A DNA stretch of 64,000 bases from a bacterium (GTDB lineage: Bacteria > CAIWAD01), in contig JAUIFJ010000005.1 in assembly GCA_030429345.1 (NCBI GenBank), forward strand, positions 118,838 to 182,837, in the 5' to 3' direction. The translations under genes were made by a program, and so were the position numbers. Below, one piece after another: positions 1 to 64,000 of this stretch. Under the pieces are notes generated by a model. That model did not search any database and had not been told where the DNA came from. It saw nothing but the letters and a program-made list of their open reading frames with translations. Positions within the stretch are counted from its first letter, which is position 1; each line of letters begins with the position of its first letter.

Positions 1-2757
1 TTGGCGCATGCCACTGTCGACAGGACGCACGATGGAGTGTGTTGTCATCGTGGCTTCTGTTTGCCATTCCTCGCTTGCATCCTTCCGTCCCTGAACCAAG
101 TACGCCGAATGAGCCGGATGATCCTCCCACTCCAGCAACAGCTGTCCATTGGCAAATCGGATGTCCAAGTGGATCGGATCATACATGCGTTTCAGCGCCA
201 GGATCTCCTCCTGCGAGAGGGCGCGATCATGAATTGTGATCTCATCTATCCTGCCCTCGAAGGGCACAGAGATACTGGAACAGGCGCCCAGTCCGCCACA
301 GCCGATGGTAAACCCAGTCTCGGACGAGATTGGCGTTCCCTCGGCGGGCGACAGCGCGTCAAGTACCCCATCGACATACAGGGCGACATAGTCGTTCTTC
401 TTGTACACCGCAGAGACAAACACCCACTCGTCCTCTATGAGAACCTGGTTGCCTGTGATCACCGGGGGATTCGACACAATTGTATCCGTATCCATTACGA
501 AGCGGAGAGCCCCGTTGGTATCGATGAAGAACCCCATGTTCCTGACGACGGAATCGCCCTTGCCGAGAAAGGCCATTTTCTGGGCCGGAGTCACCAGGTA
601 GGGACGGATGTAGGCGCTAAAAGTGCAACTTCCGGTCATGTTGAAGGCATCATTCTGGCTGGCATCCGACAGGAACAGAACATCTCCACCGCCGAACTCG
701 TAAGCGCCATCAGGAGTACCGGCATAGCCCGTCGCCAACTGCGCCCCATCCGTATCACAGTGGAATGCGTTCCCGCTGAGGTCGGAGGCGTTCCCATGAA
801 CGGGGTAGTATGCCAGTGGTCCGGCCGGATCATAGAGTTCACGGGCCTGGCACTGCGTGAACGCTCGATCATACAGGCGGACATCGTCGATGAATCCTTC
901 GAAGGGCACGGACTGGGAGTAGCATGCCCCATCGCCGCCGCAGCCGATCGCCAGCCCAACTGGGCTCAGCACGGGATCGCCGGCGGCCACATTGCTGTTG
1001 TCCAGTTCTCCGTTGAGATAAAGTGCAACAATCTGGTCCTTCCGATATACGGCCGTAACCTGAACCCACTCACCCGGCAACAGCTGTGATGCGCTTTCCA
1101 GAACAGGGGGGTAGTCACTGGCTTCCTGTGTATCGATCACGAGTCTCACCCGGCTGTCCGGTGTTATAAAGAGTCCGTAGTTGCGCAAGGCCGAATCACC
1201 CTTTCCGAGAATAGCCATTTTCATTCCCGGTGTGACCATGTCAGGACGGATCCAAACCGAGAGGGTCATGCTTCCCTCGAAATCAAGCAGGTGATCCTGG
1301 GTTACGCTACCATCGAGGCGGCAGTAGTCGGTTCCGCCAACCACGTATGCAGCTTGTTCATCCCCGAAACGTCCCGTCGCAAAAGTGCCCCCTTCCAGCA
1401 CGCAGTGCAGTTCATTGCCGGAGACATCCAGCGAGTTACCCGAAAAAGGATAGTGGGCGACCAAACCGCCAGGTTCGACGATCTGCATTATGTCCTGCTC
1501 CGACAACGGGGCATTGTAAAGGCGGATCTCGTCGATCTCCCCTTCGAAAGGCACGGAGAGGTTCAAACACTGGCCGACGCCCTGGCAACCGATAGCAGAC
1601 AAGGTTGCAGTGGGTTCGGGAAGGCCGCTAGCTACCATCAGGGTATCCAGCACACCATCGATGTAAAGCGCCATGTGGGAATCCACGTCGTAGACAAACC
1701 CCACATGCACCCACTCGCCGGCAGCCAGAGCACTGCGGCTGTTCAGCGTGCCCACATTGTCGATGACAAAACGCAGTCGACCGTCGGGTTGGACATATGC
1801 ACCATAATTCCTGTGTGCGGGATTCCCTTTGCCCAGAATCGACATCTTCTGCGGCGGTGTGACGTTCAACGGCCGGATCCAGGACAGCAGGCTCATGCTG
1901 TGAGACATGGACAACAGCGTGTCGGCATCCGAATCCGCCAGCCGCAAATGGGCTCCGCCGCTGAAACTGTAGGCGCCTTGCGGCTCGCCGTATGGCCCTG
2001 TCACGAGAGTGGCCCCGTCGGTGATGCAATGCAGGCCCAAGGGACCCGCATCGTCGGCATTGCCGGCTACGGGATAATACGCCAGAAGCCCGCCGGGCTG
2101 ATGGATTTCGTGCACCTGTGCTGCGGTCAGGGCTCGGTTGAAGAGTCGCACTTCGTCCAGGGCTCCGACATAGGGCTCAGAAAGATTGAAGCAGCTGCCG
2201 CTTCCCTGGCATCCCAGGGCAAACTGCTGCGAACTGGCCACAGGAAAACCGGTGGCAGTGGTCAGAGTATCCAGTTCGCCATTGATGTAGATCGCCATAG
2301 AATGATTGATTCTGTATACGAGACACACATCCACCCAGACATCAACCTCAAGAACGGCAGAACTGAACAACATCTCGCTCACACCGTCCACACTCCACTG
2401 AAGGCGTCCGTTCGGGGCAATAAAGAGAGCGTAGTTTCGCAGCGCACTGTCCCCCTTGCCAAGAACACCCATCTTGCCGGCAGGGTGGGTCACCTCGGGA
2501 CGAATCCGCGCAGAGAGTGACATGCTGTCGTACAGGTTGAAGACGTCGCTTTCAGGCATCACGATAGGAGCACCGCCCGAGAAGCGGGCAGCGGAATGGG
2601 GATTCCCATCTGCGTCCTCGACCCAGGTGACATCCCCACCACTTCCATCAAGTGCATTGGGTCCCTCATCGTTCGCATTCCCGTTCAAGGGGTAATACGC
2701 GAACTGGGCCTGAACGACCAAGGCATAGCACAACAGAATCAGAATAGTCGTCTTCAT
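1..2757 (-). CDS. Secreted tandem LamG-domain surface protein (3' end beyond window)
   Basis: The open reading frame runs from ATG at 2757 to the left edge without a stop, giving about 919 visible residues. The start follows a strong ribosome binding site (GAGGGAGGAG, 3 nt before ATG). Residues 1-17 form a typical signal peptide ending in VQA. Four modules of about 210 residues follow, at roughly 18, 226, 431 and 648. Each begins with a YYP..GNA.D..G motif, has a KM.(I/V/F)LGKG core and ends in F.G.(I/L)D(E/D)(V/I)RL. This is the LamG/concanavalin-like jelly-roll pattern of carbohydrate or surface binding proteins. After about residue 850 a fibronectin-III-like stretch begins (LEWEDHPAHSAYLVQG). 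The gene lies directly downstream of a kinase/sigma54-regulator pair and has its own -24/-12 type promoter. The role is inferred to be an adhesin or glycan-binding surface protein. Whether it ends in a sorting domain cannot be seen here. Confidence 0.85.
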   Translation of the reverse strand, partial: MKTTILILLCYALVVQAQFAYYPLNGNANDEGPNALDGSGGDVTWVEDADGNPHSAARFSGGAPIVMPESDVFNLYDSMSLSARIRPEVTHPAGKMGVLGKGDSALRNYALFIAPNGRLQWSVDGVSEMLFSSAVLEVDVWVDVCLVYRINHSMAIYINGELDTLTTATGFPVASSQQFALGCQGSGSCFNLSEPYVGALDEVRLFNRALTAAQVHEIHQPGGLLAYYPVAGNADDAGPLGLHCITDGATLVTGPYGEPQGAYSFSGGAHLRLADSDADTLLSMSHSMSLLSWIRPLNVTPPQKMSILGKGNPAHRNYGAYVQPDGRLRFVIDNVGTLNSRSALAAGEWVHVGFVYDVDSHMALYIDGVLDTLMVASGLPEPTATLSAIGCQGVGQCLNLSVPFEGEIDEIRLYNAPLSEQDIMQIVEPGGLVAHYPFSGNSLDVSGNELHCVLEGGTFATGRFGDEQAAYVVGGTDYCRLDGSVTQDHLLDFEGSMTLSVWIRPDMVTPGMKMAILGKGDSALRNYGLFITPDSRVRLVIDTQEASDYPPVLESASQLLPGEWVQVTAVYRKDQIVALYLNGELDNSNVAAGDPVLSPVGLAIGCGGDGACYSQSVPFEGFIDDVRLYDRAFTQCQARELYDPAGPLAYYPVHGNASDLSGNAFHCDTDGAQLATGYAGTPDGAYEFGGGDVLFLSDASQNDAFNMTGSCTFSAYIRPYLVTPAQKMAFLGKGDSVVRNMGFFIDTNGALRFVMDTDTIVSNPPVITGNQVLIEDEWVFVSAVYKKNDYVALYVDGVLDALSPAEGTPISSETGFTIGCGGLGACSSISVPFEGRIDEITIHDRALSQEEILALKRMYDPIHLDIRFANGQLLLEWEDHPAHSAYLVQGRKDASEEWQTEATMTTHSIVRPVDSGMRQ

Positions 2758-2799
2758 TGCTCCTCCCTCGATTGAAATCGTGTTTGCAATCGAAGGATT

Positions 2800-2815
2800 G
2801 GCAATAGGCGGGCCA
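2800..2815 (-). promoter_or_regulatory. Sigma54 (-24/-12) promoter for the LamG gene
   Basis: On the minus strand the sequence is TGGCCCGCCTATTGCC, with exact GG-N10-GC spacing and good matches to TGGCAC-N5-TTGC. Transcription would start near 2788, about 30 nt before the LamG start codon at 2757. The neighbouring upstream gene encodes a sigma54 activator. A perfect palindrome TCACGTGA (2859-2866) lies about 75 nt upstream of the predicted start and is a possible activator site. This is a motif match only. Confidence 0.6.
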
Positions 2816-2900
2816 ATTGGCCAGTAGCTTTGAAGACGCGATGGACGCCCGGGTGAAATCACGTGAACGTATCCACAGCACACGAAGATGTGGGAAAAGG

Positions 2901-4313
2901 CTACGAGTGAGGGGAGGACTGCCGTCTGTTTCGGAGTTCTGGCAGAACATCATAGAATTTCTTCCGGTGTACACCGGCGAGTTCTGCTGCTGTGGCAATG
3001 ATTCCATTTGCCTCTTCCAGCTTGGCTCGGAAGTAGCGCAACTCGATTTCGGCCTTGACTTCCTTCCAGGTCTTGTCCAGCGCAAAACCACTTTCGTCGG
3101 CGATGTCCGTTTCTTGACCCAGAAGACGCAGGTCCCAGTGCACCCGCTCTCTTTCGACCAGCCAGGACTGGATCTGTGACTGCTCCGCGTGAACACACAA
3201 CGCCTGAACGAACTGCATCAATTGGCGCACATTGCCTTCCCAATCGATCCTCGCGAGGGCCTCAAGGGCATCAGGCTGGATCATGACTGGTTGAGTATGC
3301 CTGGCTCGATTTCGAGCTTCCAGAACATGCCCGACAAGCAAAGGAATGTCCTCCAGCCTTTCCTGCAAAGGCGGTATACGGATGCGCAGCCCGCTAAGCC
3401 TGTGAAGCAGATCATCGCGAAAGGCACCCATTCGCACTTGCTGGAGCAGGTTTCGGTTGGATGCAGCTACCAACTGAACATCTGTGCGACGGATTTTCCC
3501 TTCTCCCAGCCGGGAGAAGGTTCCCGTTTCGAGAACCCTCAGGAACTTGCCTTGCACCTCCAGAGGCAGTTCGGAGATCTCGTCGACGAACAGAACACCA
3601 TTATTGGCATTTTCGAAAGCACCTGGCCTAGCCTTCCCGGCACCGGTGTATGCGCCGTCTACATGCCCAAAAAGTTTGGTTTCCGCCAAGGACACCTGGA
3701 TGTTGGTGCAATCCAAGACGGTCAATTCTTTGTGTGCTCGTGGACTCTGCCGGTGGATCGCTTCTGCGACGAGCTCCTTGCCAGTTCCCGTTTCTCCCTC
3801 GACTAGAATCGACAAGTCTTCCTCGCTTGCGTAGGTGCGGATCCGGGCACGCAACTCTTGCATGACCTGGCTTTGACCTAGTAATGGATCTTCCGCAGGT
3901 TCTTCTTCCCGGCGCCATGCGCACAGACTTTCCGCTTCCTTCAGGGCGGGTCGAAGATCGGCAGCTGCGGACTCCTTAACCACGTATTGAACCATGCCCA
4001 GGTTCGCAAAGCGATGGACCAGGCTCGTATTGCCACTCATGGTAATCACGATTACGGGAATCGCATGCCGATTCTGCCGCAGGTCCTGCAGTAAATGCAG
4101 CCCGCCGTTGACATCTCCGGGAAACTCATTATCCAGAAGCAGGACATCCGGCTTCCAGGAGTGGATCAACTCCTCGACAGATTCCAGATCCGGCGTCCAC
4201 TCCGCTTCGTATCCCCAGCGCTGCAGGTTCTTTCGGTAGAGCACTCCATACTCCTGCTGATCCTCTACAATCAGGACACGGTATTTCCGGTTGCCGGCTT
4301 GGCGTTCAGGCAT
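2901..4313 (-). CDS. NtrC-family sigma54-dependent response regulator
   Basis: The protein has about 470 residues. An N-terminal receiver (VLIVEDQQ; phospho-acceptor Asp in LLLDNEF; conserved Lys in YVVKES) is followed by an AAA+ domain. That domain shows Walker A GETGTGKE, the sigma54-contacting loop in the common GAYTGA variant, Walker B LFVDE, and the NVRQL segment. The C-terminus (IATAAELAGVHRKKFYDVL) resembles a Fis-type DNA-binding helix-turn-helix. The chosen ATG at 4313 has GGAG six bases upstream and overlaps the kinase stop codon. An ATG at 4325 and a TTG at 4328 are alternatives. It is the cognate regulator of the upstream kinase. The downstream LamG gene with a -24/-12 promoter is the obvious candidate target. 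Confidence 0.9.
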   Translation of the reverse strand: MPERQAGNRKYRVLIVEDQQEYGVLYRKNLQRWGYEAEWTPDLESVEELIHSWKPDVLLLDNEFPGDVNGGLHLLQDLRQNRHAIPVIVITMSGNTSLVHRFANLGMVQYVVKESAAADLRPALKEAESLCAWRREEEPAEDPLLGQSQVMQELRARIRTYASEEDLSILVEGETGTGKELVAEAIHRQSPRAHKELTVLDCTNIQVSLAETKLFGHVDGAYTGAGKARPGAFENANNGVLFVDEISELPLEVQGKFLRVLETGTFSRLGEGKIRRTDVQLVAASNRNLLQQVRMGAFRDDLLHRLSGLRIRIPPLQERLEDIPLLVGHVLEARNRARHTQPVMIQPDALEALARIDWEGNVRQLMQFVQALCVHAEQSQIQSWLVERERVHWDLRLLGQETDIADESGFALDKTWKEVKAEIELRYFRAKLEEANGIIATAAELAGVHRKKFYDVLPELRNRRQSSPHS

Positions 4314-6735
4314 GTGACACTCCATCAAGTAACTGTTCCTGCCGTACTAGCGGGAGCCGCAAGTAGACAGCTGCTCCACCGATCTCCTTGTTCCTGACAG
4401 TCAATTCCCCCCCGTGCTCATGGGCAATATGCCGCGAAAGAAACAGGCCGAATCCGGAACCTTCGTCCTTTGTCGTGAATCCCGGTTCCCAGATCCTGTC
4501 CAGGACATCCGGCGGAATGCCGGGACCATTGTCCTCGATGCGCAGAACAGCCATTTCTTCCTCCTGCTGCAACAGAAAGTGGAGCGTCCCTTTCCGGCGC
4601 ATCGCTTCCACGGCATTCCTCAGCATGCTCTCGATCATCGCCTGGACTGAAGCTGTGGCTACGTATACGGGAAGCAACTCCGCCTGACGGGAAGAGGTGA
4701 CATCGATTGTCGACATGGCATCCAATCCCAGATCCGTGCAGGCATTCTCGAGCAGCGTGCCCAGATCTACCGATTCCCGCTCCTCCCCTACTTTGATGAG
4801 GGCCAGAAAACGCTTGATCCGTTCCCGGCAGAACCGGTGGGCCACTTGCATTTCTTCAACTGCCTCACGGAAGCCAGAATCCTTCTCAAGGCCTGCCTCT
4901 TGGATCGACTCCTGCAGATTCACGACCGCGAATTCGGCAGGCAGCAGGGCCTTGCCCAGATTGTGGGTCAAGATCCCTGCAAAGCTTTCTAGCCTCCCCA
5001 AATGTTCCCTTGTCATTCGGTTCGTGTCATCAATTCCCTGAATGTACCACCCTATCCTGGAGGCTTGAATGTGTGTTTCCCGGGCAATCCAGCGAAACAG
5101 CCGTCCGTCCTGCCAGCTATCGATGAATCCCGATTCCCTGGCTCGGGCATGCCCGATCACGCGATCCAGCAGATCCCCTGGGACCAGTTCGCGAAATCGC
5201 GTATTTGCATAGAGCAACTCTCCCTGGTCATCTGTGAGTGCTGCTGCTGTCACTCCGTCAGACAGCATTCCGCTCAACACCCGCTCCTGGCGGCGTACTC
5301 TGTAGGACAGATACACCAGCAAGAGGACAAAGGACACAGCGAATGCTGGGGGGATCGCGGGATTCGCCATCAAGCGTGATACGAATGGAACATGACTGAT
5401 CGTGAAGGACTGCAACAACTGACCATCCGAAACATGAATGCGGCTGTTCTCAAGCGTACCGTCTACGGATTCCAGCAGGATCCGATTCTTATTCCCTGCA
5501 GTACTGATCTCGACCAGTGGTTGCCCCTCCGGGGAATAGAGCCTGTATCCGGTCGCGGGGCGGAATGCGAGCCAGTACGCCTCTTGGACAAGCCCGATCA
5601 GGATGCTGTCACGGAATCCACGCAGGTGCCCCGCCGGCACAAGTCTTCCTGAATCGAAAAAAAACTTGAATAATCGTCCGTCCTGGTTGACAAGGAGTGC
5701 GTGGTTCTGGCGGATCAGACAGAAGTTCTCCAGACCAGCCAAACGAGCCGAAGTAAGCACGCTGTCCTTCCAAGCATCCAGGACGACCAGGTTATGCGTC
5801 TCGGGAACGTCAACCCTGTCAAAGACCTGCTTGGTCTGCAGGTAGATCCGACGGCGGTCCTGCAGAACGTGGGCATTCAATGCCGTGTGCGCCATCCCCA
5901 TGCGAATCTGCTCGACAAAACCGGAATCGGGATCCATCAGAAACAAAGGTGCTTCCCCGTCGTTGACACCACCCAGTTCCCTGCCGTTGCGGGTGGCATG
6001 CCCACCCATTGCGTACAAGGAATGGCCATCGGGGGTCAGCAGCGTCTGATTTGAGTAGGGGGCTGGCGCAATGGCATTGGGAAACAAGTCAACGATCTGC
6101 AGCGATAGGGGATCGATGAGAACACCACCACGCCAGCCTTCAAAATGGCCGAACAGGGACAGGTAAAGCAACTCTCGCCCCTTGTGCTCCAGGCGATTCG
6201 CCTCAATGACCCATGGCGCTTCCCTTATTGAAACAGGCACCTGATCCGAGTGAAACAGCGGCAGGTCCGCTTCCTCAATCCCGCTGCCGAAGGGCCAGCG
6301 TCGAAGACACAAGTATACGGCGCTGGAGTCGCGTGTTAGCAGACACAGTGTCGGGGCCCCTGCAAGCGTATCGAAGAAATGGGGACGAAGAACAATCTCA
6401 TCCCCTGGAAAGTAGAGCTGCTTGGCCGGACGTCGCTGGAGCGGAGTATTGTACTCGATCGTCATCGAAGCGCCATGGAGCTTCGAGCGGGATTCGCGCA
6501 TTCGCTCGGCGAAACCATCTTGATCGATATCCCCGACCGCAACAAACCCCGCCGTCATGCTGGAGTCGAACCGTTGGATTCGGTGTGATACACCAGGTTG
6601 AAACCAGAATTCCATCGCGCACCCGATGAGCAAGGACAGGAGCACACAAAATGCGACACCGATCAATAGAGTCTTCTTGTAATGAACAAGGAAGCTGCGA
6701 CGATAGGGTAGACCCTTGTTGGCGACACCGAACAT
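4306..6735 (-). CDS. Membrane sensor histidine kinase with large extracytoplasmic domain
   Basis: The protein has 809 residues. A short cytoplasmic N-terminus leads into a membrane helix at about 22-40, then about 400 extracytoplasmic residues. Those contain an FG-GAP-like segment (VGDIDQDGF) and recurrent beta-strand patterns suggesting a propeller. A second membrane helix lies near 458-480. A PAS-like segment (ALTDDQGELLYANTRFRELV) follows, then a non-standard phospho-acceptor box around ILTHNLGKALLP. The C-terminal ATPase domain shows LRNAVEAM (N box), EDNGPGIP (G1) and GSGFGLFLSRHI (G2). The gene is the first of a two-gene unit whose end overlaps the sigma54 regulator. The periplasmic ligand is unknown. 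A possible sigma70 -10 element (TACAAT) lies upstream at about 6771-6776 on the minus strand. Confidence 0.88.
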   Translation of the reverse strand: MFGVANKGLPYRRSFLVHYKKTLLIGVAFCVLLSLLIGCAMEFWFQPGVSHRIQRFDSSMTAGFVAVGDIDQDGFAERMRESRSKLHGASMTIEYNTPLQRRPAKQLYFPGDEIVLRPHFFDTLAGAPTLCLLTRDSSAVYLCLRRWPFGSGIEEADLPLFHSDQVPVSIREAPWVIEANRLEHKGRELLYLSLFGHFEGWRGGVLIDPLSLQIVDLFPNAIAPAPYSNQTLLTPDGHSLYAMGGHATRNGRELGGVNDGEAPLFLMDPDSGFVEQIRMGMAHTALNAHVLQDRRRIYLQTKQVFDRVDVPETHNLVVLDAWKDSVLTSARLAGLENFCLIRQNHALLVNQDGRLFKFFFDSGRLVPAGHLRGFRDSILIGLVQEAYWLAFRPATGYRLYSPEGQPLVEISTAGNKNRILLESVDGTLENSRIHVSDGQLLQSFTISHVPFVSRLMANPAIPPAFAVSFVLLLVYLSYRVRRQERVLSGMLSDGVTAAALTDDQGELLYANTRFRELVPGDLLDRVIGHARARESGFIDSWQDGRLFRWIARETHIQASRIGWYIQGIDDTNRMTREHLGRLESFAGILTHNLGKALLPAEFAVVNLQESIQEAGLEKDSGFREAVEEMQVAHRFCRERIKRFLALIKVGEERESVDLGTLLENACTDLGLDAMSTIDVTSSRQAELLPVYVATASVQAMIESMLRNAVEAMRRKGTLHFLLQQEEEMAVLRIEDNGPGIPPDVLDRIWEPGFTTKDEGSGFGLFLSRHIAHEHGGELTVRNKEIGGAAVYLRLPLVRQEQLLDGVSHA

Positions 6736-6978
6736 GAACCGAGACCCCTACTGCTGCGGATGTTGTACCTGGTTCGCACAAGATTGTACCCTTTTCCCAC
6801 ACATCATTCCATTCAAGGTGGGCTTGGGCGGGCACAAGGAATCAACAGCAATCTACATGCCTGCTGAAACAGCCGCTCCGTGTAGGCAGCGTCCACTCCG
6901 AACTCTGGCTCGAGCGCGAGAGCCAGGACCCGGAGAAGGGGCTCAAGCGCTAGGGGCGCGTCCGGTACAGAGAGCGGA

Positions 6979-7012
6979 AAGGTCCCGCCCCGGCATTGAG
7001 GGGCGGGCCCTT
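6979..7012 (-). terminator. Intrinsic terminator after the VIT/VWA gene
   Basis: CCCGCCCC (6984-6991) pairs with GGGGCGGG (7000-7007) across an 8-nt loop. The stem extends four more pairs beyond one mismatch. Read on the minus strand it is followed by TTTCC. It lies just 3' of the gene ending at 7033. The rest of the 6736-7032 gap holds no convincing gene. Confidence 0.7.
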
Positions 7013-9111: not shown

Positions 9112-9516
9112 CGGTCTCTCCTTTCCGTAGGGGGAACGGGGGCTTCCCGTTGTGTAAGAAAGTCAAGACTGCCGATCGATAGTCTGGAAAGCCTGATCCG
9201 AATCCCGCGACACACGGCTTCGAATCCACGTGTAGGCTTGCTGCCCATCGATCAAGCAAGAACAATGCCATGATTGCGTATGCCTTGCGACCTCCGCCTA
9301 CCTTTTTTCACAGCAGCGCCCTCGAGGTGATCGATTAAATGGTGCTGCCGACGCGGATTAAAGATCGACGAACCATGCACCGATAGAACCCCATGCACCA
9401 ACTGCGTCAGGAGTCCCCCCCAGCAGGCGGCAGCATACACCCAGTACTGGCTCGCCAACGGATTCGCACCCCGCACGTTTCCCGGAGCCGCAGCAGAAGT
9501 ACATCCGAAGGAGTGC
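9112..9516. other. Divergent intergenic region without a convincing gene
   Basis: About 400 bases separate the divergently transcribed VIT/VWA gene and the PAS/GAF gene. An 88-codon minus-strand frame (9252-9518) crosses it but lacks a ribosome binding site and recognisable composition. A TTGACT element on the minus strand near 9170 could be a -35 box for the VIT/VWA gene, but no clear -10 accompanies it. No strong hairpin or repeat was seen. Confidence 0.5.
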
Positions 9517-22968: not shown

Positions 22969-25338
22969 TTATTTCAACAACAACACCTTCCCCGTCCGCA
23001 CCTCTCCCAGCGCCGCCAGCCTCAGGAAATACACCCCGCTGGCCAGCCCTTCCGCCTGGAACACAACCTCATGCCTGCCTGCCGGCAGCAGGTCATGAAC
23101 CAGCGTATGCACCTTTTGCCCGCGCAGGTTGTATACAGCCAGCGTGACCGGCGCACTGTTGGGCAGGTCGAAGGCGACCGTCGTTGCCGGGTTGAAGGGG
23201 TTCGGCCAGGCCGGATGCAAGGCGATGCTTGCCGGCAGGGCCGGGGTTTCCTTCGGTGTGACAGAGACCTGTGGATCCTGCTCCCGGGCGCCCGGGCCGC
23301 CGGTGTAGCCCATGTCATTCCGCAGGCCACCCTGGCTGGGCCAAAGAGCAAAGCCGGGGGATTCGGGGTCCTCCACATCATTGTAGACGGGGTCCGGATT
23401 GCCGGCATCGATGGCGGGGGAGGCGGGGGATAGGTAGGGGATGCCTAAGTCTACGTCGAAGAGGGGGTCCTCAACCAGGCAATCTTCCCCTTCCATCCCC
23501 ACTTGAAGTACAGAGTTTTGAAAACTGGGCAAGTCCCAATCCGGATCCGCGAGCGTCGTATACTCGTTTCCCCAGAGAATCGAATTGTGGAAATCAAAGC
23601 CGCCGGTAAACAGTTTGGACATGGTGCAGTTCACTAGAGTCACGTTGTCCAAACTCGAGACTCCATTGTCCAGTCCGGCAATCAGTGCGGCTTGATAGGA
23701 ATCATCGTACGGGTAGGGTAGGTGATTGTCCTGTTCAGCGATCTCCTCGAACACGCAATTCTGAAGGGATAGGGTATCCGGGCCGACAATGCTCAGACCG
23801 AATCGATTGGTGCGGCGTATGACGACCTGGTTCATGAAGATCGAGTCAAATCCATCGCGCAAGGCGATCCCACCGTCATCGCAATCTTCCATCAGGACAT
23901 TGTCCAGTTGGTAATGTACCAGTCCGCCACCTACAAATTCCACCGTGCTGCCGACGCTGCGATGCCAGAGATCCATCCCCGGCCATTCCGGCGCGTGGTT
24001 GGGTTGGCGGTTGTTGCGGAAGACGCAGTCCCGCAGTTCTGCATATTCTCCATAGCAGGCGTGGTACAAGGCACGTCCCTTATTGGGCCAAGGGTTTTGG
24101 AACTGGGTGTAGTCGTCCGGATCGTGCAGGTAGTTGTCCTCGAAACGGCAGTTGATGAAGCGGGATGTGTCTAAATGGGACGAATAGGCTACAACGGACC
24201 CACCCCACATGGCTTGCTCTCCGTCCACAGGACCATTCAAGACTGTGTTTCGGCTGAACTCGCTGTCGAGGACATCAGCATATCCAATCGAGAGGATATG
24301 TCCACGCGCTACCGGCTGTAAAGAGTCGCCGACGATGTTGTCCGTCACATGCAAATTGCGGATCGTGCCGTCGCCATTGATGGTTCCAGCCCCATCGCCC
24401 TGAAAGAGCACACGATTGCGTTGGATGTACAGACTGTCCATGTCCAGAATGGAGCTGTTGAAGGTGTTTCGATTCCCTCTTCCTGCTCCGTCATTGAGAT
24501 TGTCCGTAATGTGCACATTGCGGACGATAAGGGTGTCCCCTTCAAGACCTAGAACCCCGCTATCCTCGTTGTGGCAGTTGCGAATAGTTATGTCCCGTGC
24601 ACTCGTTAAACCTTCACTCTTGAAGATTACCAAGTGATGTCCCGTGTCAGTTCCGTCAACCATTGTCACACGAGACACCTGGATTCCGGCATCCGCAAGG
24701 AAGTTGCAGACATTCTGTCCATTGTTTTGGGCTATGACAAGATCCTCAACGATCCCCAAACCATACATGTAGATGCGCATGCATTCTTCCATACCTTCAG
24801 CATCCAGTAGCACATTGTCATGGATGTGGATTCGCTGAAAGCTGAAGTTTCCTTCTCGACTGATGGATCCTTCCTGATCCAGTATGGGCGCCGCACGATC
24901 ATAGCCACGGTTGTATCGAAAAACGAGATCCTGGAAGTTGATGCTTACATCCGGATGCAGCTGAATTGCACCCGCACGCATGTCCCAGCTGTTATTGAAG
25001 TATCCTTCTCCGTTCTGCACCGTGAATCCCTGCAGGTGGAGTACGGCTGGGGTTTGGGTGAAAACCTCCAGGACGGTCCCTTGATAGTCTCCATCCAGAA
25101 TCGTCTCCTGAATGTCAGTGGTGTCCTGGGTGAACATGTAGTGCGAAGCCAGAGTGACTCCCCAGGAGGGCGTTGCTAGAAGCTCCACATAGGTCCCTCT
25201 GGCCACCAGAACAGTATCCCCTTCGCTGGTCGCATCCAGGGCCTGTTGGATGCTGGAGTACTCCGAGGGTACATGGAGCTGGCTTGCCCGCGCAAACGTG
25301 CAGAAGCATAGCAGACAAGCCAGCATCCAGAGTTTCAT
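22969..25338 (-). CDS. Secreted parallel beta-helix protein with sorting module
   Basis: The protein has 789 residues with a signal peptide of about 18 residues (ends FARAS). It opens with VPSEYSSIQQALDATSEGDTV, the SIQ.A.D.A..GDTV entry strand characteristic of pectin-lyase-like right-handed beta-helices. The helix runs to about residue 690 with many N.F.D-type turns. A region naming paired outcomes such as IRNLHVTDNIV recurs. The last ~85 residues are a type IX-like module (PNPFNPATTVAF, VYNLRGQKV, ASGVYFLRL, ending LLLK). It starts 16 bp after the glycoside-hydrolase-like gene and is probably cotranscribed with it. Base composition is AT-richer than the housekeeping genes. A polysaccharide-binding or cleaving role is possible; no catalytic residues could be assigned. 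Confidence 0.87.
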   Translation of the reverse strand: MKLWMLACLLCFCTFARASQLHVPSEYSSIQQALDATSEGDTVLVARGTYVELLATPSWGVTLASHYMFTQDTTDIQETILDGDYQGTVLEVFTQTPAVLHLQGFTVQNGEGYFNNSWDMRAGAIQLHPDVSINFQDLVFRYNRGYDRAAPILDQEGSISREGNFSFQRIHIHDNVLLDAEGMEECMRIYMYGLGIVEDLVIAQNNGQNVCNFLADAGIQVSRVTMVDGTDTGHHLVIFKSEGLTSARDITIRNCHNEDSGVLGLEGDTLIVRNVHITDNLNDGAGRGNRNTFNSSILDMDSLYIQRNRVLFQGDGAGTINGDGTIRNLHVTDNIVGDSLQPVARGHILSIGYADVLDSEFSRNTVLNGPVDGEQAMWGGSVVAYSSHLDTSRFINCRFEDNYLHDPDDYTQFQNPWPNKGRALYHACYGEYAELRDCVFRNNRQPNHAPEWPGMDLWHRSVGSTVEFVGGGLVHYQLDNVLMEDCDDGGIALRDGFDSIFMNQVVIRRTNRFGLSIVGPDTLSLQNCVFEEIAEQDNHLPYPYDDSYQAALIAGLDNGVSSLDNVTLVNCTMSKLFTGGFDFHNSILWGNEYTTLADPDWDLPSFQNSVLQVGMEGEDCLVEDPLFDVDLGIPYLSPASPAIDAGNPDPVYNDVEDPESPGFALWPSQGGLRNDMGYTGGPGAREQDPQVSVTPKETPALPASIALHPAWPNPFNPATTVAFDLPNSAPVTLAVYNLRGQKVHTLVHDLLPAGRHEVVFQAEGLASGVYFLRLAALGEVRTGKVLLLK

Positions 25339-25354
25339 TTCCAGGGCCCTTCGA

Positions 25355-28300
25355 CTATTTCAGCAGGAGCATCTTGCGATGCTGAACCCCAAATTCGGAC
25401 CGTGCGGTGACGATGTAAACGCCGCTTGCAAATGCGCTGCCATCGAAAGCCAATGTATGGCTTCCCGCTTCCAACTCCTCTTCCAGCAGCGTCATCACCT
25501 TTTGACCTAGCAAATTGTAGACCAGAACGCTCGCCTTCCCTTCCTTCGGCAGCTCGAGGATGATCGTTGTGCTGGGATTAAAGGGGTTCGGGTAGACATT
25601 GGCGATCCGGAACTGTGTCGGCAGTCCCGGCTCTTCTTCCAGATCTCCGGGAATTGTCTGTACCATCTCGTAGTGCAGGAATTCGTGGGCCGCTTCACTC
25701 TCCTCCAGGATCCGGGAAGGTGCGAAACTGGCTGTTCCAGCCGCGGACATCCCGCCGGGCGGGGGTGGATAGGCCTGGATTTCAAGTTTGGCCAGCTTGA
25801 TGGTGTTGTAGTTGATGGGATCCGTCTCGGCCATCTGCATACTGTCCAGTAGGCTCAAAATCTCCGTGCGGCGTTGCCAGCGTGCTTCCACGCACCAGCC
25901 GGAGCATTCCTGCAACATGGCCTGATGGATCACGCCAAGGGCCAGACTGCTGTCCGAGGCCTGGAAGAGGTCCGTCTGAAGGGCCGAGAAGTTCAGCTCT
26001 CCGTAGGCTTTGTCCAACCCAAGGGCTTTCAGTTTCAGCGAGGCTTCATTCGCCTCCGGATCTTTCGTGTAACTGAGGACGACAGCGCGGTAGTGTCCTT
26101 GGGCCGTTGCCAGATCCCCCAGATACTCCGCATCCTTGCCGGCCTTCAATGTGACGAGGGCCGTCATTTCGTCGTATGGACAAGTATCCGGATACAGGAT
26201 CGGGCAGGATCCCAGATTGTACTCCAGTTCCGCCCAGAAGGGAATGGCCCACTCGGATGTGTCAGCTGGTGTGATCGCGCTGGTCGGAATGGAATCTGTG
26301 CAGCTCTCTCCCCAGAAGTTCTTTCTCCACGTACGAGTATTCAAGGGAGGTGAAGAGCTCGTATACGAGACGAGATCGATGTTCAATCCACCAAACTGCG
26401 GTGAAACAAACGAATTGTATCCACAGTGCAAGTCCAAGTAGCAGTCTCCGACCATTCGGACCAATGACTGAGTCAATCCATCCTCAGTGTGATCATACCC
26501 TATAAACCGATTCATCGCGCCTTCATTCATGTGTACTGTGGAATTGGTCTCTTGGCTCAACGCGGGCACGACGCAATCGACGAACTGGTTCCCCCTGAGC
26601 TCTGCGACTCCTTGGCGCACCAGAACGGGCGGCAGCAGGGAGTCCGCATCTTGTCCCTGAAACAGGAAGGTGTTGTCTTCCAGCAAGGGTATGCCGCCGA
26701 CGGGGGTTCCTTCGACTTTGACCGACCAGCTGGCATCCTGGAAATTGGGAATGCCGAAGGTGCAGTCCTTGACGCGCAATTCGGTACTATACAGTGTCAG
26801 CTGTTTCGGCGTGGGAAAGTCCTGGAAGAATCTTGGGGGAACTCCTTCCTTATACCTGATGTCATAGCCGCTGAACTCTCCTTCGCAATGCATGAAGTAC
26901 AGTTCCGCCTCGCCGTAGTTGTGAAAGCTCACCAGTTCCGGGCGCAAATCCAGCCCAGTCAGGGAGCCGAACTGCAGCCAGGGGCGTGTGCCGGCATAGT
27001 TCGCTGGATAGTTGAAGAGCACCCCCTGCAGAGCTCCGGCCTTATCCGTTGTCACACCGACGATGATGGCGTTGGCTGGCGAACCGTCCGGTGCCTCCCG
27101 TCCCACAATCGCTGTCCGCTGGCCTGCAACGTCGCCGATGCTCAGGTCGTCGCCTCCCTGGATGATCAGGGTCTTGCCGGCGGCTACCCGGATGCTCGTG
27201 CCCGCAGGAATGTCCGTCTGAATGACGGCGGCTGCCCCTTCCACTTCGTACCAGCCTGGCTCAAGGCAGTCGACGGTCAACTGCAGCTGCTTCACCGCAT
27301 ATTGCGGCGTGTATCCGATGTCCGAGGTCGTCAGGTCGAAGTCCACAATCTGAGGGTCGCCTTTGTCCAGGCACTGGCTGTCGTGGCGTAAGGCGTAGTC
27401 GGGAGTGTACTTGACAAAATCAGCAGAAGCCGAGATGGGAAGCACCAGATTCTTGCCCGTCTGCGACGTGTCAATGAATGCGTATCCATCCGTCAGCCAC
27501 CAAATGGATTGGTCGAAGAGAGAATGCTTCACAGTCAGATTGGGGCCGGCAGTGCCAGCGATCGATTCACAGAGGCCGGCATTTGTACTCTCTGGATCGT
27601 GCGAATTCGTGAACAGGCAGTTGGTGATCTCGACAGCGGCATTTTGATGAAAGGACATCGTCGCAGCGTCCGACGGCTGCGTGATACCGCGATCATGATG
27701 GAAAGTGCAGTTCGTGATGGTGGCTGAGGACAGCCAATCCACATTCACATCCAGACCGGAAATGATGGCCGAAGCTGTTCCCCCCAGGTTCTCAAGGAAC
27801 AAGGAATTGGTCACCGTAGCCTTGGAACCATTTGTCAGGTAGACCAGTCCATACTCAGGCATGCCTGATTGAGCGCCGCGCCAGCTGTAGTTCTCAATGA
27901 AACTGCAGTTTTCCGCCAATAAATCAGAATTCTGGACCCAAAGGAATGGGCTTCCCGAGGAATAGCCGTTCCTGAAAACCGTATTGTACAGGTCCAACGA
28001 AGCGTCTTGCGCCTTCATCAGCACATTGTTGCTTGAGCAGTCCTCGAAGGTCACATCGCGGATCTCTGCATCACACTCCCTGAACTCCATCGGTCCGTGC
28101 AGGGACATGCAGGACAAGCGAACGGCTCCCTCTTCCGCGGGTTCAAATGCTTCCGGCGTTCCCGTTACTCCTTGAATCGAGATTGAGTCGACATCCGTGA
28201 ACGCCCAACCTCCGAAGAAGTACTCATTTGGATTCTCGTAGAGATAGATCCTCCAAGAGTCGAACCAGTCCGAGTTTTCGTGGATGTAGTCGATCGCATC

Positions 28301-29755
28301 ATCCAGGTTCTCGAAGTCGAACTCTTCCCCAATTCCCACATGAACTTCCGATTTCAGTTGGCTTAGCTGGAGCCACTTCGTATACGCCGGCTTTGGTGTT
28401 CCATCGGGATGCATGGCTCCCCAACCCACGTGATCCGGATCGTTGCCCAGTTGCTCCCTGACATTCCACCACATCAAGGGGCCGGCAAATTCCCATTGCC
28501 GCCATTGCTCCAGGTAAGCCTGAGCCCAGAAAGCCTGCAGTTCTTCGCTGTTCAATCCATGCGTCTCGTATACGACTGTGGAATCCCAACACACAGTGTC
28601 GCCCGTCAAGGAGTCTATGGCGCAGAAAGTTTCGACACGGGACCAAGTTGTATCAATCGCGGGACCGCATTCGGTTCCCCAGATCTTCTTGGACGACTCT
28701 CCTTCTTCGCACATGATTGCGTAGAGTTCCTGAGTATGCATGAAACTGCTCATGGGGCTGATTCCCGTCAGACGACTCGGGTCGGCAACGATAACCCTCG
28801 GATCTGCCCGCAGTTGCTCATAGCTGATCGTGGACCCCAAAGCAAGCAGCTCCAGGGAATCGTGCACCGCTGCGGTCCCCTTGCCCACACCGAAGGGACC
28901 ATAGGGATGATATCCCACTGCATCAAAAAGAGTCGAATCCCCGATGGAGTGACTATAGGCATACATGTGCTTTAAGAACTGATCCGGGGTATAAGCCGTT
29001 GTATCCGGGGGCGAGTACAAGCTCGTATCCTGTGTCACCGTCCACCTTCGCGGCACCATTCCTCCTGAAAGCACAGTTAAAGGCGGAGAGCCCGGGTTCG
29101 ACTGCTGATACAAAGCCGCCTGTTCGTGCATTGAATCATAGGCAATTTTAAGATACTCAGGATACTCTACGATGCCGGGGATCTTAGCGGTCGGCCAGCC
29201 GCGATCATCCGTAAAGAATCGCTGATAGTATCTATTCGTGTTCGGTTCATTCCCGATCTCGAAATGAGTGACATCCGGATAGTAGCGTTCGATGACTGTG
29301 CGGCAAAAGTCGGCCCATTGGTTTTTCGCTACATCCGTATCCTTGAGCGCGATGTAGCTGCTGGCAGGTGAGCCGTCCATGTCGAAGGGTGCCGGACGGG
29401 CAAATGGCGGTACGGTGAAAACCTGCATGATGACATTCAGACCGATGGCCTGAGCTACGGTGAACTTGGCTTCCACATTCGTGAAATCAAGGGGGCCGCC
29501 AGGATAATCCCCCGCTACATCCCACCAACCGACACCAACGACTGTCCAATCTCCAACCTCAAAGGCTGCGGAAAAGAAATCTGCTGCATTGTCGGTGATG
29601 TAATCATCCGTACCCGCGAAATAAACATGAAACCCCATCCGCTCCCGAAGGGCCTCGCCGAAAGCCTGACTGCACAACAGCAGCACCAACACGAGCAGGA
29701 ACGAACTGCGCCGGTGACTGTGCCAACTCATAACAGATGACTTCAAGGGGATCAT
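25355..29755 (-). CDS. Very large secreted glycoside-hydrolase-like/beta-helix protein with sorting module
   Basis: The protein has 1466 residues from the ATG at 29755 (AGGAG upstream). A TTG-initiated frame from 29809 lacks a binding site. A signal peptide ends near SQAFGEA. Residues ~40-500 look like a clan A (beta/alpha)8 glycosidase: HFEIGNEPNTN is a candidate acid/base Asn-Glu pair, and KKIWGTECGP a candidate nucleophile strand. GFHVYFAGTDDY marks the first strand. A beta-helix region with SIQ/NCTF-type turns follows to about 1200, then a helical stretch (AQGHYRAVVLSYTKDPEANEA) resembling a TPR-like linker. The protein ends in a type IX-like module (YPNPFNPSTTI, VYNLLGQKV, ASGVYIV, final LLLK). 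It is probably a surface polysaccharide-degrading enzyme; the substrate cannot be told. Confidence 0.82.
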   Translation of the reverse strand: MIPLKSSVMSWHSHRRSSFLLVLVLLLCSQAFGEALRERMGFHVYFAGTDDYITDNAADFFSAAFEVGDWTVVGVGWWDVAGDYPGGPLDFTNVEAKFTVAQAIGLNVIMQVFTVPPFARPAPFDMDGSPASSYIALKDTDVAKNQWADFCRTVIERYYPDVTHFEIGNEPNTNRYYQRFFTDDRGWPTAKIPGIVEYPEYLKIAYDSMHEQAALYQQSNPGSPPLTVLSGGMVPRRWTVTQDTSLYSPPDTTAYTPDQFLKHMYAYSHSIGDSTLFDAVGYHPYGPFGVGKGTAAVHDSLELLALGSTISYEQLRADPRVIVADPSRLTGISPMSSFMHTQELYAIMCEEGESSKKIWGTECGPAIDTTWSRVETFCAIDSLTGDTVCWDSTVVYETHGLNSEELQAFWAQAYLEQWRQWEFAGPLMWWNVREQLGNDPDHVGWGAMHPDGTPKPAYTKWLQLSQLKSEVHVGIGEEFDFENLDDAIDYIHENSDWFDSWRIYLYENPNEYFFGGWAFTDVDSISIQGVTGTPEAFEPAEEGAVRLSCMSLHGPMEFRECDAEIRDVTFEDCSSNNVLMKAQDASLDLYNTVFRNGYSSGSPFLWVQNSDLLAENCSFIENYSWRGAQSGMPEYGLVYLTNGSKATVTNSLFLENLGGTASAIISGLDVNVDWLSSATITNCTFHHDRGITQPSDAATMSFHQNAAVEITNCLFTNSHDPESTNAGLCESIAGTAGPNLTVKHSLFDQSIWWLTDGYAFIDTSQTGKNLVLPISASADFVKYTPDYALRHDSQCLDKGDPQIVDFDLTTSDIGYTPQYAVKQLQLTVDCLEPGWYEVEGAAAVIQTDIPAGTSIRVAAGKTLIIQGGDDLSIGDVAGQRTAIVGREAPDGSPANAIIVGVTTDKAGALQGVLFNYPANYAGTRPWLQFGSLTGLDLRPELVSFHNYGEAELYFMHCEGEFSGYDIRYKEGVPPRFFQDFPTPKQLTLYSTELRVKDCTFGIPNFQDASWSVKVEGTPVGGIPLLEDNTFLFQGQDADSLLPPVLVRQGVAELRGNQFVDCVVPALSQETNSTVHMNEGAMNRFIGYDHTEDGLTQSLVRMVGDCYLDLHCGYNSFVSPQFGGLNIDLVSYTSSSPPLNTRTWRKNFWGESCTDSIPTSAITPADTSEWAIPFWAELEYNLGSCPILYPDTCPYDEMTALVTLKAGKDAEYLGDLATAQGHYRAVVLSYTKDPEANEASLKLKALGLDKAYGELNFSALQTDLFQASDSSLALGVIHQAMLQECSGWCVEARWQRRTEILSLLDSMQMAETDPINYNTIKLAKLEIQAYPPPPGGMSAAGTASFAPSRILEESEAAHEFLHYEMVQTIPGDLEEEPGLPTQFRIANVYPNPFNPSTTIILELPKEGKASVLVYNLLGQKVMTLLEEELEAGSHTLAFDGSAFASGVYIVTARSEFGVQHRKMLLLK

Positions 29756-30025
29756 CTTGCTGCTCCTCTGCACTGCGAAACAAACGATTCGACTCGCCAA
29801 GAAGCTCAACAGTTTTGTTCACCCCCCCCCCTTGATCTGTATCAACAACTGAAATTCCTTTCGGAAGACAACAAAGCGACAAATCCCCAACCGAGTCCGC
29901 TGATCAGGCCTTCACAACGGAATTCGGTGAACTCCCCGGAATGCGCTTTCCGGCGCCGGAAGGAGGAGCCCCAGACACTGGATTGCAGTAGTACTCCCGC
30001 TTTCGTGGGAATGGCGAGCTCCGAT

Positions 30026-35388: not shown

Positions 35389-36798
35389 CTACCCCCGGGG
35401 TCCCGGACGGGAGGGGCGGTACTCTTCGGCTTTCAGCCCATGCTTTTTCAACTTTGCCAGCAGGTTCTTGCGGGCAATGTCCAGCCGACGGGCGCAAGCG
35501 CTGACGTTCCCCTGCTCGCGCCGCAGGGTCTCGTCCAGGAGTTGCCGCTCGACCGCGTCCCGGGCCTCCTGCAGAGTCATCTTCATCAGGTCTCGTGACA
35601 GGGACGGGCTTTTCGAATCCTGTTCAATGAAGGAAGCCGGAAGGTAGCGCCGCTGCAGGCCTTCCTGGCCATTCAGCACCAGCAGGTTCTCGACCAGATT
35701 CTCCAGCTCGCGAATGTTGCCGGGCCAATCGTGGTGCCGCAGGGCATCCAGGAAGTCCTCTTCCACTCGCGGAGGGTCCAGGCCGCGCGCGCCCGCAATG
35801 CGCGCCGACAGCCCGCGGACCAGATCCGGCAGATCTTCCAGTCGATCGCGCAGCGGCGGCAGGCGAATCTCGATCACGTTCAATCGGAAATACAGATCCC
35901 TTCGAAAGCGCCCCGCTTCCACTTCCTCCTTCAGGTCGCGATTGGTGGCGCTGACCAGCCGGAAATCCGCCTTCTCCAGCCGGTTGCTGCCCAGGGCACT
36001 GAACTCGCGCTCCTGCAGCACGCGCAGCAGTTTGGCCTGCAGGTCCAGGTCCATCTCACCGATCTCGTCGAGAAGGATCGTTCCGCCGTGCGCCTGGGCA
36101 AAACGCCCTTCCCGCTCGCGTCCCGCCCCGGTGAAGGCGCCTTCCACATGGCCGAAGAGTTCGCTTTCGATCAGGTTCGGCGGCAGGGCGGCAATGTTGA
36201 CCTTGACCAGCGGATGCTTGCGGCGCGAGCTGTGGTGGTGGATCAGGTCCGCCAGCAGCTCCTTGCCCGTTCCGGATTCGCCGCTCAGGAGCACGCTGGC
36301 GCCGGAATCGGCAATGCGCCGCACGGTCAGTTCGTAGATCGCCTGCATGCGCGGATTGCGACTGGCCCGCCCACTGTCCGGGCTAAGCATGCGCCGCAGC
36401 AGCTCTCCGCCCTGGCGCGTCAGGGACTGTTCCCGCTGCAGGGCTTCCAGTTCCTTCCGCAGCTGGCCGTAATCGAGAGGCTTCTCGATGTAGCCGTGAG
36501 CGCCCAGCTTCATGGCTTCAACGGCGCTGTCGACGGTGCCGAAACCAGTGAAGAGCATGATGCGCACCAGGGGAAAATGCCGGTGCACTTCCCGCAGCAG
36601 CTGCATGCCGTCCATATGCGGCATGTAGATGTCGCTGAGGATCAGGTCGATCTCCTCGGAACGGAGGATGGAGAGGGCTTCCATTCCGTCGGAGGCCGTG
36701 CGACATTCGTGTCCCCAGCCGCGGATCAGCTCGCCGGAGATCGAGAGGATGTCCTTTTCGTCATCGACGACCAGGACGCGCAGGCGGCGCTCACTCAT
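35389..36798 (-). CDS. NtrC-family sigma54-dependent response regulator
   Basis: The protein has 469 residues. The receiver has VLVVDDEKDI, Asp in LILSDIYMPHMDG and Lys in GYIEKPLD. The AAA+ domain has GESGTGKE (Walker A), canonical GAFTGAG, ILLDEIGEM (Walker B), NRDL and WPGNIRELENLVENL. The Fis-type helix-turn-helix at the C-terminus reads NVSACARRLDIARKNLLAKLKKHG. No kinase gene is adjacent, so it is an orphan within this window. It starts 170 bp upstream of the three-receiver regulator and is divergent from a small gene at 36835. The plausible -24/-12 promoter at 38435 is the nearest candidate target. Confidence 0.93.
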   Translation of the reverse strand: MSERRLRVLVVDDEKDILSISGELIRGWGHECRTASDGMEALSILRSEEIDLILSDIYMPHMDGMQLLREVHRHFPLVRIMLFTGFGTVDSAVEAMKLGAHGYIEKPLDYGQLRKELEALQREQSLTRQGGELLRRMLSPDSGRASRNPRMQAIYELTVRRIADSGASVLLSGESGTGKELLADLIHHHSSRRKHPLVKVNIAALPPNLIESELFGHVEGAFTGAGREREGRFAQAHGGTILLDEIGEMDLDLQAKLLRVLQEREFSALGSNRLEKADFRLVSATNRDLKEEVEAGRFRRDLYFRLNVIEIRLPPLRDRLEDLPDLVRGLSARIAGARGLDPPRVEEDFLDALRHHDWPGNIRELENLVENLLVLNGQEGLQRRYLPASFIEQDSKSPSLSRDLMKMTLQEARDAVERQLLDETLRREQGNVSACARRLDIARKNLLAKLKKHGLKAEEYRPSRPGPRG

Positions 36799-38434: not shown

Positions 38435-38450
38435 TGGCCCTTCCTTTGCA
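38435..38450 (+). promoter_or_regulatory. Sigma54 (-24/-12) promoter for the 97-residue gene
   Basis: TGGCCCTTCCTTTGCA has exact GG-N10-GC spacing and matches TGGCAC-N5-TTGCA closely. The start would be near 38461, giving a leader of about 22 nt that contains the strong AGGAGG site before ATG at 38484. This is a motif match only. Confidence 0.6.
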
Positions 38451-38483: not shown

Positions 38484-38777
38484 ATGTCCAGTAGCCAGCA
38501 GATCCACATCAGTGAAACCCTTCGCAGTTTCAAGCTCCACAAGCGCGATTTCGAGAAGCGCATGTCGGAGGTACGCAAAGAGCGTGACGATCTGCGTCAC
38601 CTGGTGGCCCTGCCCGTCAATCCGCGCAGCAAGCAGATTTCCCTGAAGGACTCGGAAAAAGATTCCCGCCTGGTCGAGATCTTTGATCGGGTCGAGGATG
38701 GTCGCTACTACCAGAAGGAAATGGCCGAAATGGTCAGCGAGCGGATCATGTCCAAGCTCTGGAACATCAACTTCTAG
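38484..38777 (+). CDS. Small charged protein, FlgM-like only weakly
   Basis: The protein has 97 residues, with ACAGGAGGAAAAT just before ATG. The first half is a highly charged helix (LRSFKLHKRDFEKRMSEVRKERDDLRHLV) likely to form a coiled coil. The second half has SRLVEIFDRVEDGRYYQKEMAEMVSERIMSKL. The pattern of a helix, then G.Y, then a helix ending in the last residues loosely recalls the anti-sigma factor FlgM, but the resemblance is too weak to name it. It is flanked by a sigma54-type promoter with twin palindromes upstream and a strong terminator downstream, so it is a single-gene transcript. Confidence 0.8.
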   Translation: MSSSQQIHISETLRSFKLHKRDFEKRMSEVRKERDDLRHLVALPVNPRSKQISLKDSEKDSRLVEIFDRVEDGRYYQKEMAEMVSERIMSKLWNINF

Positions 38778-57838: not shown

Positions 57839-58906
57839 ATGGAACGATTTCCCGTCACGCGCGCTTCAACCAGCCGCTACGACAGCATAGACTACGGCAA
57901 CCTGCGCTTCGGTCGCTACTTCTCGGACCACATGTTCCAGATGGATTTCGAGAACGGCAGCTGGGGCACTCCGCAGATCGTGCCCTATGCTCCCATGGCC
58001 ATCGAACCGGCCAACCTGACTTTCCATTATGGACAGACCGTCTTCGAGGGACTGAAAGCCTATCTCCATCCCACCGGCGCCGTCTCCATGTTCCGCCCCG
58101 GAAAGAATCTGGAACGGATGACGCGCAGTTGCCGCCGCCTCTGCATTCCGGACTTTCCGGAAGACCAGGTGCTGGAAGGCATGAAGCAGGTGATTGACCT
58201 GGACAGGAAGTTCATTCCGACGGAAGAAGGCCACAGCCTCTACATCCGTCCCTTCGCCTTTGCCATGGATAACCTGCTGGGCGTGCAGGAAAGCACCCGC
58301 TATCGCCTGCTGGTGATCACCAGCCCGGTGGCGGCCTACTACCCGGAAGGCATCAAACCCGTCAAGCTGGATGTGCCCGGCGATTACATCCGCTGCGCCC
58401 GTGGCGGAACCGGCACGGCGAAGACCGCGGCCAACTACGCCGCCAGCCTGCTGCCGGCCAAACTGGCTCGCCAGGCCGGCTACACCCAGGTCCTCTGGCT
58501 GGATGCCGACGAGCATCGCTACATCGAGGAAGTGGGCACCATGAACATCTTCTTCGTGATCGGCGATGAAGTCGTCACGCCGGCGCTCTCCAGCGGCACG
58601 ATTCTCGAGGGCATCACCCGCATGACGGCCATCGAGCTGCTGAAGGACTGGGGCTACACGGTCCACGAGCGGCGCATCACCATCGACGAGGTCTGCGAGG
58701 CCCAGAGCGCGGGGCAGCTGAAGGAAGTCTTCGGCACCGGCACCGCCGCGGTGATCAGCCCCGTCGGCGAGATCCACTACATGAACCAGACGATGACCAT
58801 CAACAACTTCGCCATCGGCGAGGTCGGCCAGCGCCTCTACGACGAGATCACCGGCATCCAGTACGGCACGCGGGAAGACACGCGCGGCTGGAATGTGATG
58901 ATCTAG
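57839..58906 (+). CDS. ilvE: Branched-chain amino-acid aminotransferase
   Basis: The protein has 355 residues; GGAGG precedes the ATG. It belongs to the larger (type II) BCAT class: FHYGQTVFEGLKAY, YIRPFAFAMD, GGTGTAKTAANYAASLL with the PLP Lys, EVGTMNIFFV and GTGTAAVISPVG. It catalyses the last step of Leu, Ile and Val synthesis and the first step of their breakdown. The transcript ends at the strong terminator 22 bp later. Confidence 0.95.
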   Translation: MERFPVTRASTSRYDSIDYGNLRFGRYFSDHMFQMDFENGSWGTPQIVPYAPMAIEPANLTFHYGQTVFEGLKAYLHPTGAVSMFRPGKNLERMTRSCRRLCIPDFPEDQVLEGMKQVIDLDRKFIPTEEGHSLYIRPFAFAMDNLLGVQESTRYRLLVITSPVAAYYPEGIKPVKLDVPGDYIRCARGGTGTAKTAANYAASLLPAKLARQAGYTQVLWLDADEHRYIEEVGTMNIFFVIGDEVVTPALSSGTILEGITRMTAIELLKDWGYTVHERRITIDEVCEAQSAGQLKEVFGTGTAAVISPVGEIHYMNQTMTINNFAIGEVGQRLYDEITGIQYGTREDTRGWNVMI

Positions 58907-58928
58907 GCGCGGATTCCAGCACATGAGA

Positions 58929-58957
58929 AGAGCCGGCTTCTGCCGGCTCTTTCTTTT
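58929..58957 (+). terminator. Intrinsic terminator of ilvE
   Basis: AGAGCCGGC (58929-58937) and GCCGGCTCT (58942-58950) form a 9-bp stem with a TTCT loop, followed by TTCTTTTTT. It lies 22 bases after the ilvE stop and also faces the convergent gene at 58990. Confidence 0.93.
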
Positions 58958-58989
58958 TTCGACTTCTGGAGTGCTATACTTGGGTGAGG

Positions 58990-60291: not shown

Positions 60292-60631
60292 TCACAGTTC
60301 CCTTTCCACCGCATGCAGGACATGGCCACCGGAAGCGGCTTTCCTCGAGTCTTGAACCACTCGCTTTCGAACCCAACGCTGTAGTACCGGAACCTGCGCA
60401 TTGTGTGCAGATTCTTCTGGATCGCAACCCCTCGCCGGACCGGAACTGAAATCGCCCGAGCAGACGGAAGAGTACGAGCACCAGAAAAAGACCGATCACG
60501 ACCAGTCGCCCCCAGTCTTCCGGCAGGATGCTGGAACCAGTCGATTCCTCCACCAACGGTCCAGCGGACATGTCGAATGACTGGGCGAGTGTCTTGCACA
60601 GACCTATTGCATGAAACAACACTTGCAGCAT
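60284..60631 (-). CDS. Small membrane protein with DnaJ-like zinc motif
   Basis: The protein has 115 residues from the ATG at 60631, or three more from a TTG at 60640. One membrane helix lies at about 43-62 (LVVIGLFLVLVLFRLLG). The cytoplasmic or periplasmic C-terminus has two CxxCxGxG units (CTQCAGSGT, CPACGGKGT) like those of the DnaJ zinc domain. These usually bind zinc and unfolded or thiol substrates. There is no J domain. The gene overlaps the next one by eight bases. A similar CxxCxGxG pair ends the adjacent upstream protein. Confidence 0.75.
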   Translation of the reverse strand: MLQVLFHAIGLCKTLAQSFDMSAGPLVEESTGSSILPEDWGRLVVIGLFLVLVLFRLLGRFQFRSGEGLRSRRICTQCAGSGTTALGSKASGSRLEESRFRWPCPACGGKGTVND

Positions 60632-60679
60632 GTTATTCAAGACCTCTTCTCGAGTAGTGGCTCAGCTGAATGCCCGAAC

Positions 60680-62044: not shown

Positions 62045-62113
62045 CTTCACTCCTCCGGAATTTCGACTGCTTGCGTGGCGCTGGATGTCATTCTGGATTA
62101 TGTTCAGTCAGAG

Positions 62114-62869: not shown

Positions 62870-62960
62870 TCGTCTTCTCTCCTTGTGTGCTATTGATTGA
62901 GCTCATCTGCTCGAATTCTTCTGGCGAGTTTTCCGCATATAACTTGCTGGTTCAGGTCAA

Positions 62961-62989
62961 AGCCAGGAAGCCACGAATCTCGCCTGGCT
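62961..62989 (-). terminator. Possible terminator after the small outer-membrane gene
   Basis: AGCCAGG (62961-62967) pairs with CCTGGCT (62983-62989) around a 15-nt loop. On the minus strand TTTGACC follows. It lies just 3' of the gene ending at 62996. The loop is long and the T-run short, so function is uncertain. Confidence 0.45.
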
Positions 62990-62995
62990 GCTGTA

Positions 62996-63997: not shown

Positions 63998-64000
63998 ATG
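63998..64000 (+). CDS. Start codon of a gene continuing beyond the window
   Basis: The window ends on ATG preceded by AAGGAGG at eight bases, an almost ideal ribosome binding site. The product is out of view. Confidence 0.6.

Follow-up and report, generated by a model that had tools for sequence, protein, structure and literature searches.

A membrane sensor kinase and a sigma54 activator next to a probable sigma54-dependent gene for a secreted LamG protein

A sensor histidine kinase, a sigma54 activator and a secreted protein with tandem LamG domains are encoded, in that order, on one strand (minus) of the 64-kb stretch of DNA analysed here (the window), as read from its open reading frames. 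Together they probably make up an AtoSC/NtrBC-type two-component system that acts through sigma54 on an adjacent gene, the LamG gene, a target specific to this lineage.

The kinase (4306..6735, minus strand) has 809 aa arranged as a first transmembrane segment (TM1, residues ~23-46), an extracytoplasmic domain (~47-459), a second transmembrane segment (TM2, ~460-483), a PAS-like linker, an H-box (H591) and a HATPase_c domain (Pfam, E=1.5e-19). With two apparent transmembrane segments and an external part of ~413 residues, ORF 6735-4306 bears out the membrane kinase with an external domain of ~400 residues that had been proposed in a preliminary description of this DNA. All the features of histidine kinases are present (H-box, N, G1 and G2 boxes and the HATPase domain), H591 and the N and G boxes being invariant when the protein was aligned with its two orthologs from G001, a genome of a sister genus in the same family, and a HisKA match was present in an ortholog. 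For the external sensor, no Pfam family was found above threshold, and an AlphaFold model of the sensor alone had a mean pLDDT of 34; its C-terminal part was matched by phmmer to the designed protein Ika8 (6g6o, E=0.001), which we take to be a beta-propeller design, a match to be read as a hint only. This domain was found at three loci in 241 genomes, outside the present genome only in the two pairs of G001, and a scan of the genome contigs returned relatives of the kinase core only. The external sensor thus appears so far confined to this bacterial family and does not fall confidently into a known domain family.

The kinase stop codon overlaps the start of the regulator gene by 8 nt (ATGCCTGA, 4306..4313, minus strand, by direct reading), the regulator ATG at 4313 falling within the last codons of the kinase gene, in agreement with the overlap described previously. 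The regulator (2901..4313, minus strand; 470 aa) was assigned by Pfam and ortholog alignment to the NtrC/AtoC-type response regulators and sigma54 activators. It consists of a receiver (Response_reg, 1.6e-18) whose D61 and K113 are invariant in three orthologs, an AAA+ domain (Sigma54_activat, 7.5e-56) followed by a lid domain and a Fis-like HTH region; for the latter, HTH_8 was matched in both orthologs (1.3e-7 and 3.4e-7), without a Pfam match in the window protein itself. The AAA+ motifs, which include Walker A and B and the sigma54-interaction loop, are GETGTGKE, GAYTGA and VLFVDE. The second of these had earlier been read as GAFTGA, a reading that the sequence corrects; the orthologous regulators have GAFTGA and GSFTGA at this loop, and a tyrosine in this position occurs in known activators (PMC7057263). 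These sequence tests place the regulator in the NtrC/AtoC class, as a canonical sigma54 activator. A single rpoN gene and about 17 activator domains of full length are encoded in the genome. A second sigma54 activator is present in the window (35389-36798), and a near-consensus -24/-12 motif (TGGCCCTTCCTTTGCA, at 38435) lies ~1.6 kb from it, 49 bp before a gene for a 97-aa protein (38484-38777).

The LamG gene begins 143 bp after the regulator gene, and neither a sigma70-like promoter nor a terminator was found in this interval. The protein (1..2757, minus strand, ATG at 2757) has 927 aa in full, as completed from the genome sequence, since its coding sequence extends 24 bases plus the stop codon beyond base 1 of the window. 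The tandem LamG gene of the preliminary description was rightly placed, with four Laminin_G_3 domains in its product (Pfam, 1.5e-84; 38-47% alike), but the open reading frame on which that description relied is incomplete, being cut at the window edge. The protein starts with a signal peptide judged by eye (MKTTILILLCYALVVQA) and ends in a short C-terminal domain, and its Pfam matches included no sorting tail. A role in glycan binding or adhesion would be a guess based on the LamG fold. As the gene beyond is convergent, the LamG gene is monocistronic by position. The GC content of the kinase, activator and LamG genes is 0.56-0.57, compared with ~0.64 around them, and may reflect late arrival or relaxed composition. 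Along the window, GC falls to 0.48-0.60 at 1-7000, 24000-30000 and 58000-64000 and is ~0.64 in most of the remainder. The kinase gene is preceded by a gene for a secreted VWA protein (9111-7033), with a weaker -24/-12-like site upstream of it (TGGCATTGTTCTTGCT, 9255-9270, minus strand).

A putative sigma54 promoter precedes the LamG gene at 2801..2815 on the minus strand (TGGCCCGCCTATTGC, TGGCCCG-CCTA-TTGC). The exact spacing claimed for it earlier was confirmed from 2815 to 2801, with GG and GC 10 bp apart (GG-N10-GC) in a TGGCMC/TTGC context. The 15-bp motif ends 43 bp before the start codon. At sigma54 promoters transcription is expected to start 12 nt downstream; the predicted start is at ~2788, giving a 31-nt leader, and the ATG is preceded by GGGAGGAGCA, with a Shine-Dalgarno-like GGAGG. 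A loose form of the motif is unremarkable, with 21 matches in the window at two mismatches against 31 expected. The strict form has a background of at most ~1e-6 per position, and therefore a chance of ~1e-4 or less of occurring in the right orientation within the 143-bp gap.

Genome-wide, the strict pattern TGGCMCGN4TTGC gave 15 matches in 4.24 Mb, compared to two for the reversed pattern and a mononucleotide estimate of 8.4. Ten of the 15 stood at the starts of genes, correctly oriented, and five inside genes, called genes occupying about 83% of the sampled DNA. The genes behind strict sites include those for FlgM-like, sorting-tail and beta-helix proteins, a Glu/Leu dehydrogenase gene located with a kinase-activator pair, and an outer-membrane efflux gene behind another such pair. 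In three genomes of the same family, a slightly looser motif outnumbered its reversed form by 37 to 2, 43 to 5 and 25 to 5. This class of -24/-12 motif thus looks functional across the genome, and flagella, nitrogen and the envelope are gene classes tied to sigma54 (PMC3162934). At another activator locus of the same genome (L071), a kinase-activator pair is followed by two strict motifs (at 6039 and 6609), one before a gene for a 127-aa secreted protein and the other before the outer-membrane efflux gene of an efflux operon.

Related genomes were searched for the kinase-activator-LamG order, as the preliminary description had proposed, and no relative found has all three genes. G001 carries two orthologous kinase-regulator pairs (loci L067 and L068), in which the kinases share 27-30% and the regulators 32-35% identity with their counterparts in the window, the catalytic and phospho-acceptor residues being conserved. 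At L067, a -24/-12 motif (TGGCACATGTTTTGC, at 11206) is found 48 bp past the regulator stop, followed neither by a LamG gene nor by any intact gene. What follows is a structured stretch of ~165 nt (z -2.2; L067, 11206-11400), closed by a strong hairpin and T run of the terminator type, with convergent genes beyond. No match to this stretch was obtained in Rfam, tRNA or Pfam searches, and no DNA relative in ten other genomes, a 39-bp piece recurring elsewhere in G001 only; it is a candidate small RNA or the relic of a lost target. At L068, neither a -24/-12 motif nor a LamG gene was found behind the regulator. Upstream of the kinase of this second pair, at 5605-5650, there are four to five tandem repeats of ~11 bp of the form TGGCACC-N4. 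In eight related genomes, no relative of the LamG protein was detected beyond its short C-terminal domain. From the G001 loci and this search, the kinase-regulator pair is a conserved unit, the promoter trails it at two of three loci, and the LamG gene is peculiar to the genome of the window. It is conceivable, though rather speculative, that kinase, activator and promoter make up a cassette with an exchangeable target slot, occupied here by the LamG gene, in which case the ~165-nt stretch of L067 might even specify a small RNA under sigma54 control.

Candidate binding sites for the activator were sought as repeats shared by the regions upstream of the LamG and kinase genes. An 18-mer at the regulator stop codon (TCGTAGCCTTTTCCCACA, 2889..2906, minus strand), located between about -101 and -118 relative to the predicted start of LamG transcription, is identical at 16 of 18 positions to one upstream of the kinase gene (TTGTACCCTTTTCCCACA, 6784..6801, plus strand), as good a pair being obtained in 7 of 3000 paired shuffles. 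A second tandem copy, 78% identical (TTGTACCTGGTTCGCACA, 6763..6780, plus strand), is 21 bp from the first, about two helical turns. Activator sites are expected 100-150 bp upstream (PMC7057263), and the position of the 18-mer before the LamG gene suits such a site. No place in the rest of the genome was within two mismatches of the shared 18-mer; as the pattern was derived from its two sites, the information lies solely in the lack of further ones. The same comparison showed no shared site at L071, used as a control, and none at the G001 locus, so the 18-mer, known from one genome, stays a candidate. That it serves a different regulator or arose by chance is a real, if lesser, possibility: the true sites could be other palindromes, such as CCGGTGTACACCGG (2964-2977) and GTTCTGGCAGAAC (2936-2948) in the 3'-terminal part of the regulator gene, both perfect and some 150-190 bp ahead of the predicted LamG start, whereas the dyad symmetry of the 18-mer is weak. 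Against these palindromes, both fall in the part of the gene that encodes the HTH region and its tail, and neither figures in the list of repeats before the kinase gene.

The preliminary description had predicted that the target of the regulator is its immediate neighbour. The -24/-12 motif, its counterpart at L067 and the shared candidate site speak for this prediction; the lack of conservation of the LamG gene, the absence of a motif at L068 and the other activators of the genome, which could act on the promoter, count against it. A promoter that is truly sigma54-dependent could be driven mainly by one of these activators, the pair serving other genes and the adjacency being incidental. We consider this unlikely: there are indeed about 17 activators for some 10 strict sites at gene starts, and no LamG gene lies behind the orthologous regulators, but a -24/-12 motif directly follows the regulator in two genera, and the 18-mer is common to the LamG and kinase upstream regions only. 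Transcription of the LamG gene by read-through from the kinase-regulator genes or from an unrecognised housekeeping promoter, with the motif there by chance, is very improbable despite the common strand, the short gap in which no terminator was found and the third of strict matches that sit within genes, given the low chance of a strict match in that gap, its correct orientation and spacing, the short leader with a ribosome-binding site and the recurrence of the motif at L067.

For the two-component system with a local sigma54 target, the following course of events may be proposed. The external domain of the kinase would detect a periplasmic or envelope signal, and the kinase, judging from its domains and conserved residues, would phosphorylate the overlapping NtrC-type regulator. 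Once phosphorylated, the latter would bind the candidate site at 2906-2889, ~100 bp upstream of the promoter, oligomerise and remodel the sigma54 polymerase, leading to transcription of the gene for the secreted tandem-LamG protein. More tentatively, the regulator might also control its own operon from the similar sites before the kinase gene.

In Escherichia coli, atoSC directly precedes atoDAEB. In that system, a kinase and a sigma54 activator control a target operon under a sigma54 promoter, the activator binding ahead of the target's start (PMC3118216). The arrangement described here likewise joins a kinase and a sigma54 activator to a putative sigma54 promoter with a candidate activator site before it, but the target encodes a secreted LamG protein instead of fatty-acid catabolism, the kinase has a large, unrelated external domain, and the candidate site is an 18-mer in place of the 40-bp inverted palindrome of AtoC. 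The regulator resembles NtrC in its receiver, AAA+ and Fis-type HTH regions and as a predicted activator of -24/-12 promoters, differing in its GAYTGA loop (GAFTGA in NtrC), whereas NtrB is a cytosolic kinase and the window kinase lies in the membrane with a large external domain. The surface, secreted and flagellar-regulator genes preceded by sites in this genome fit the control of the cell exterior attributed to sigma54 (Francke et al., 2011, PMC3162934). The word laminin is absent from that article, which does not seem to deal with tandem LamG targets, and no paper joining LamG and an NtrC/AtoC-type regulator surfaced in a literature search.

The locus is a well-supported instance of a familiar regulatory design, coupled to a sensor not seen outside the close relatives of this bacterium. 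In a lineage that has received little study, it offers a compact sigma54 circuit, open to testing, for the control of a secreted LamG protein, adding to the view of sigma54 as a controller of the cell exterior, and the ligand of its external sensor could be sought by means of a single reporter promoter.
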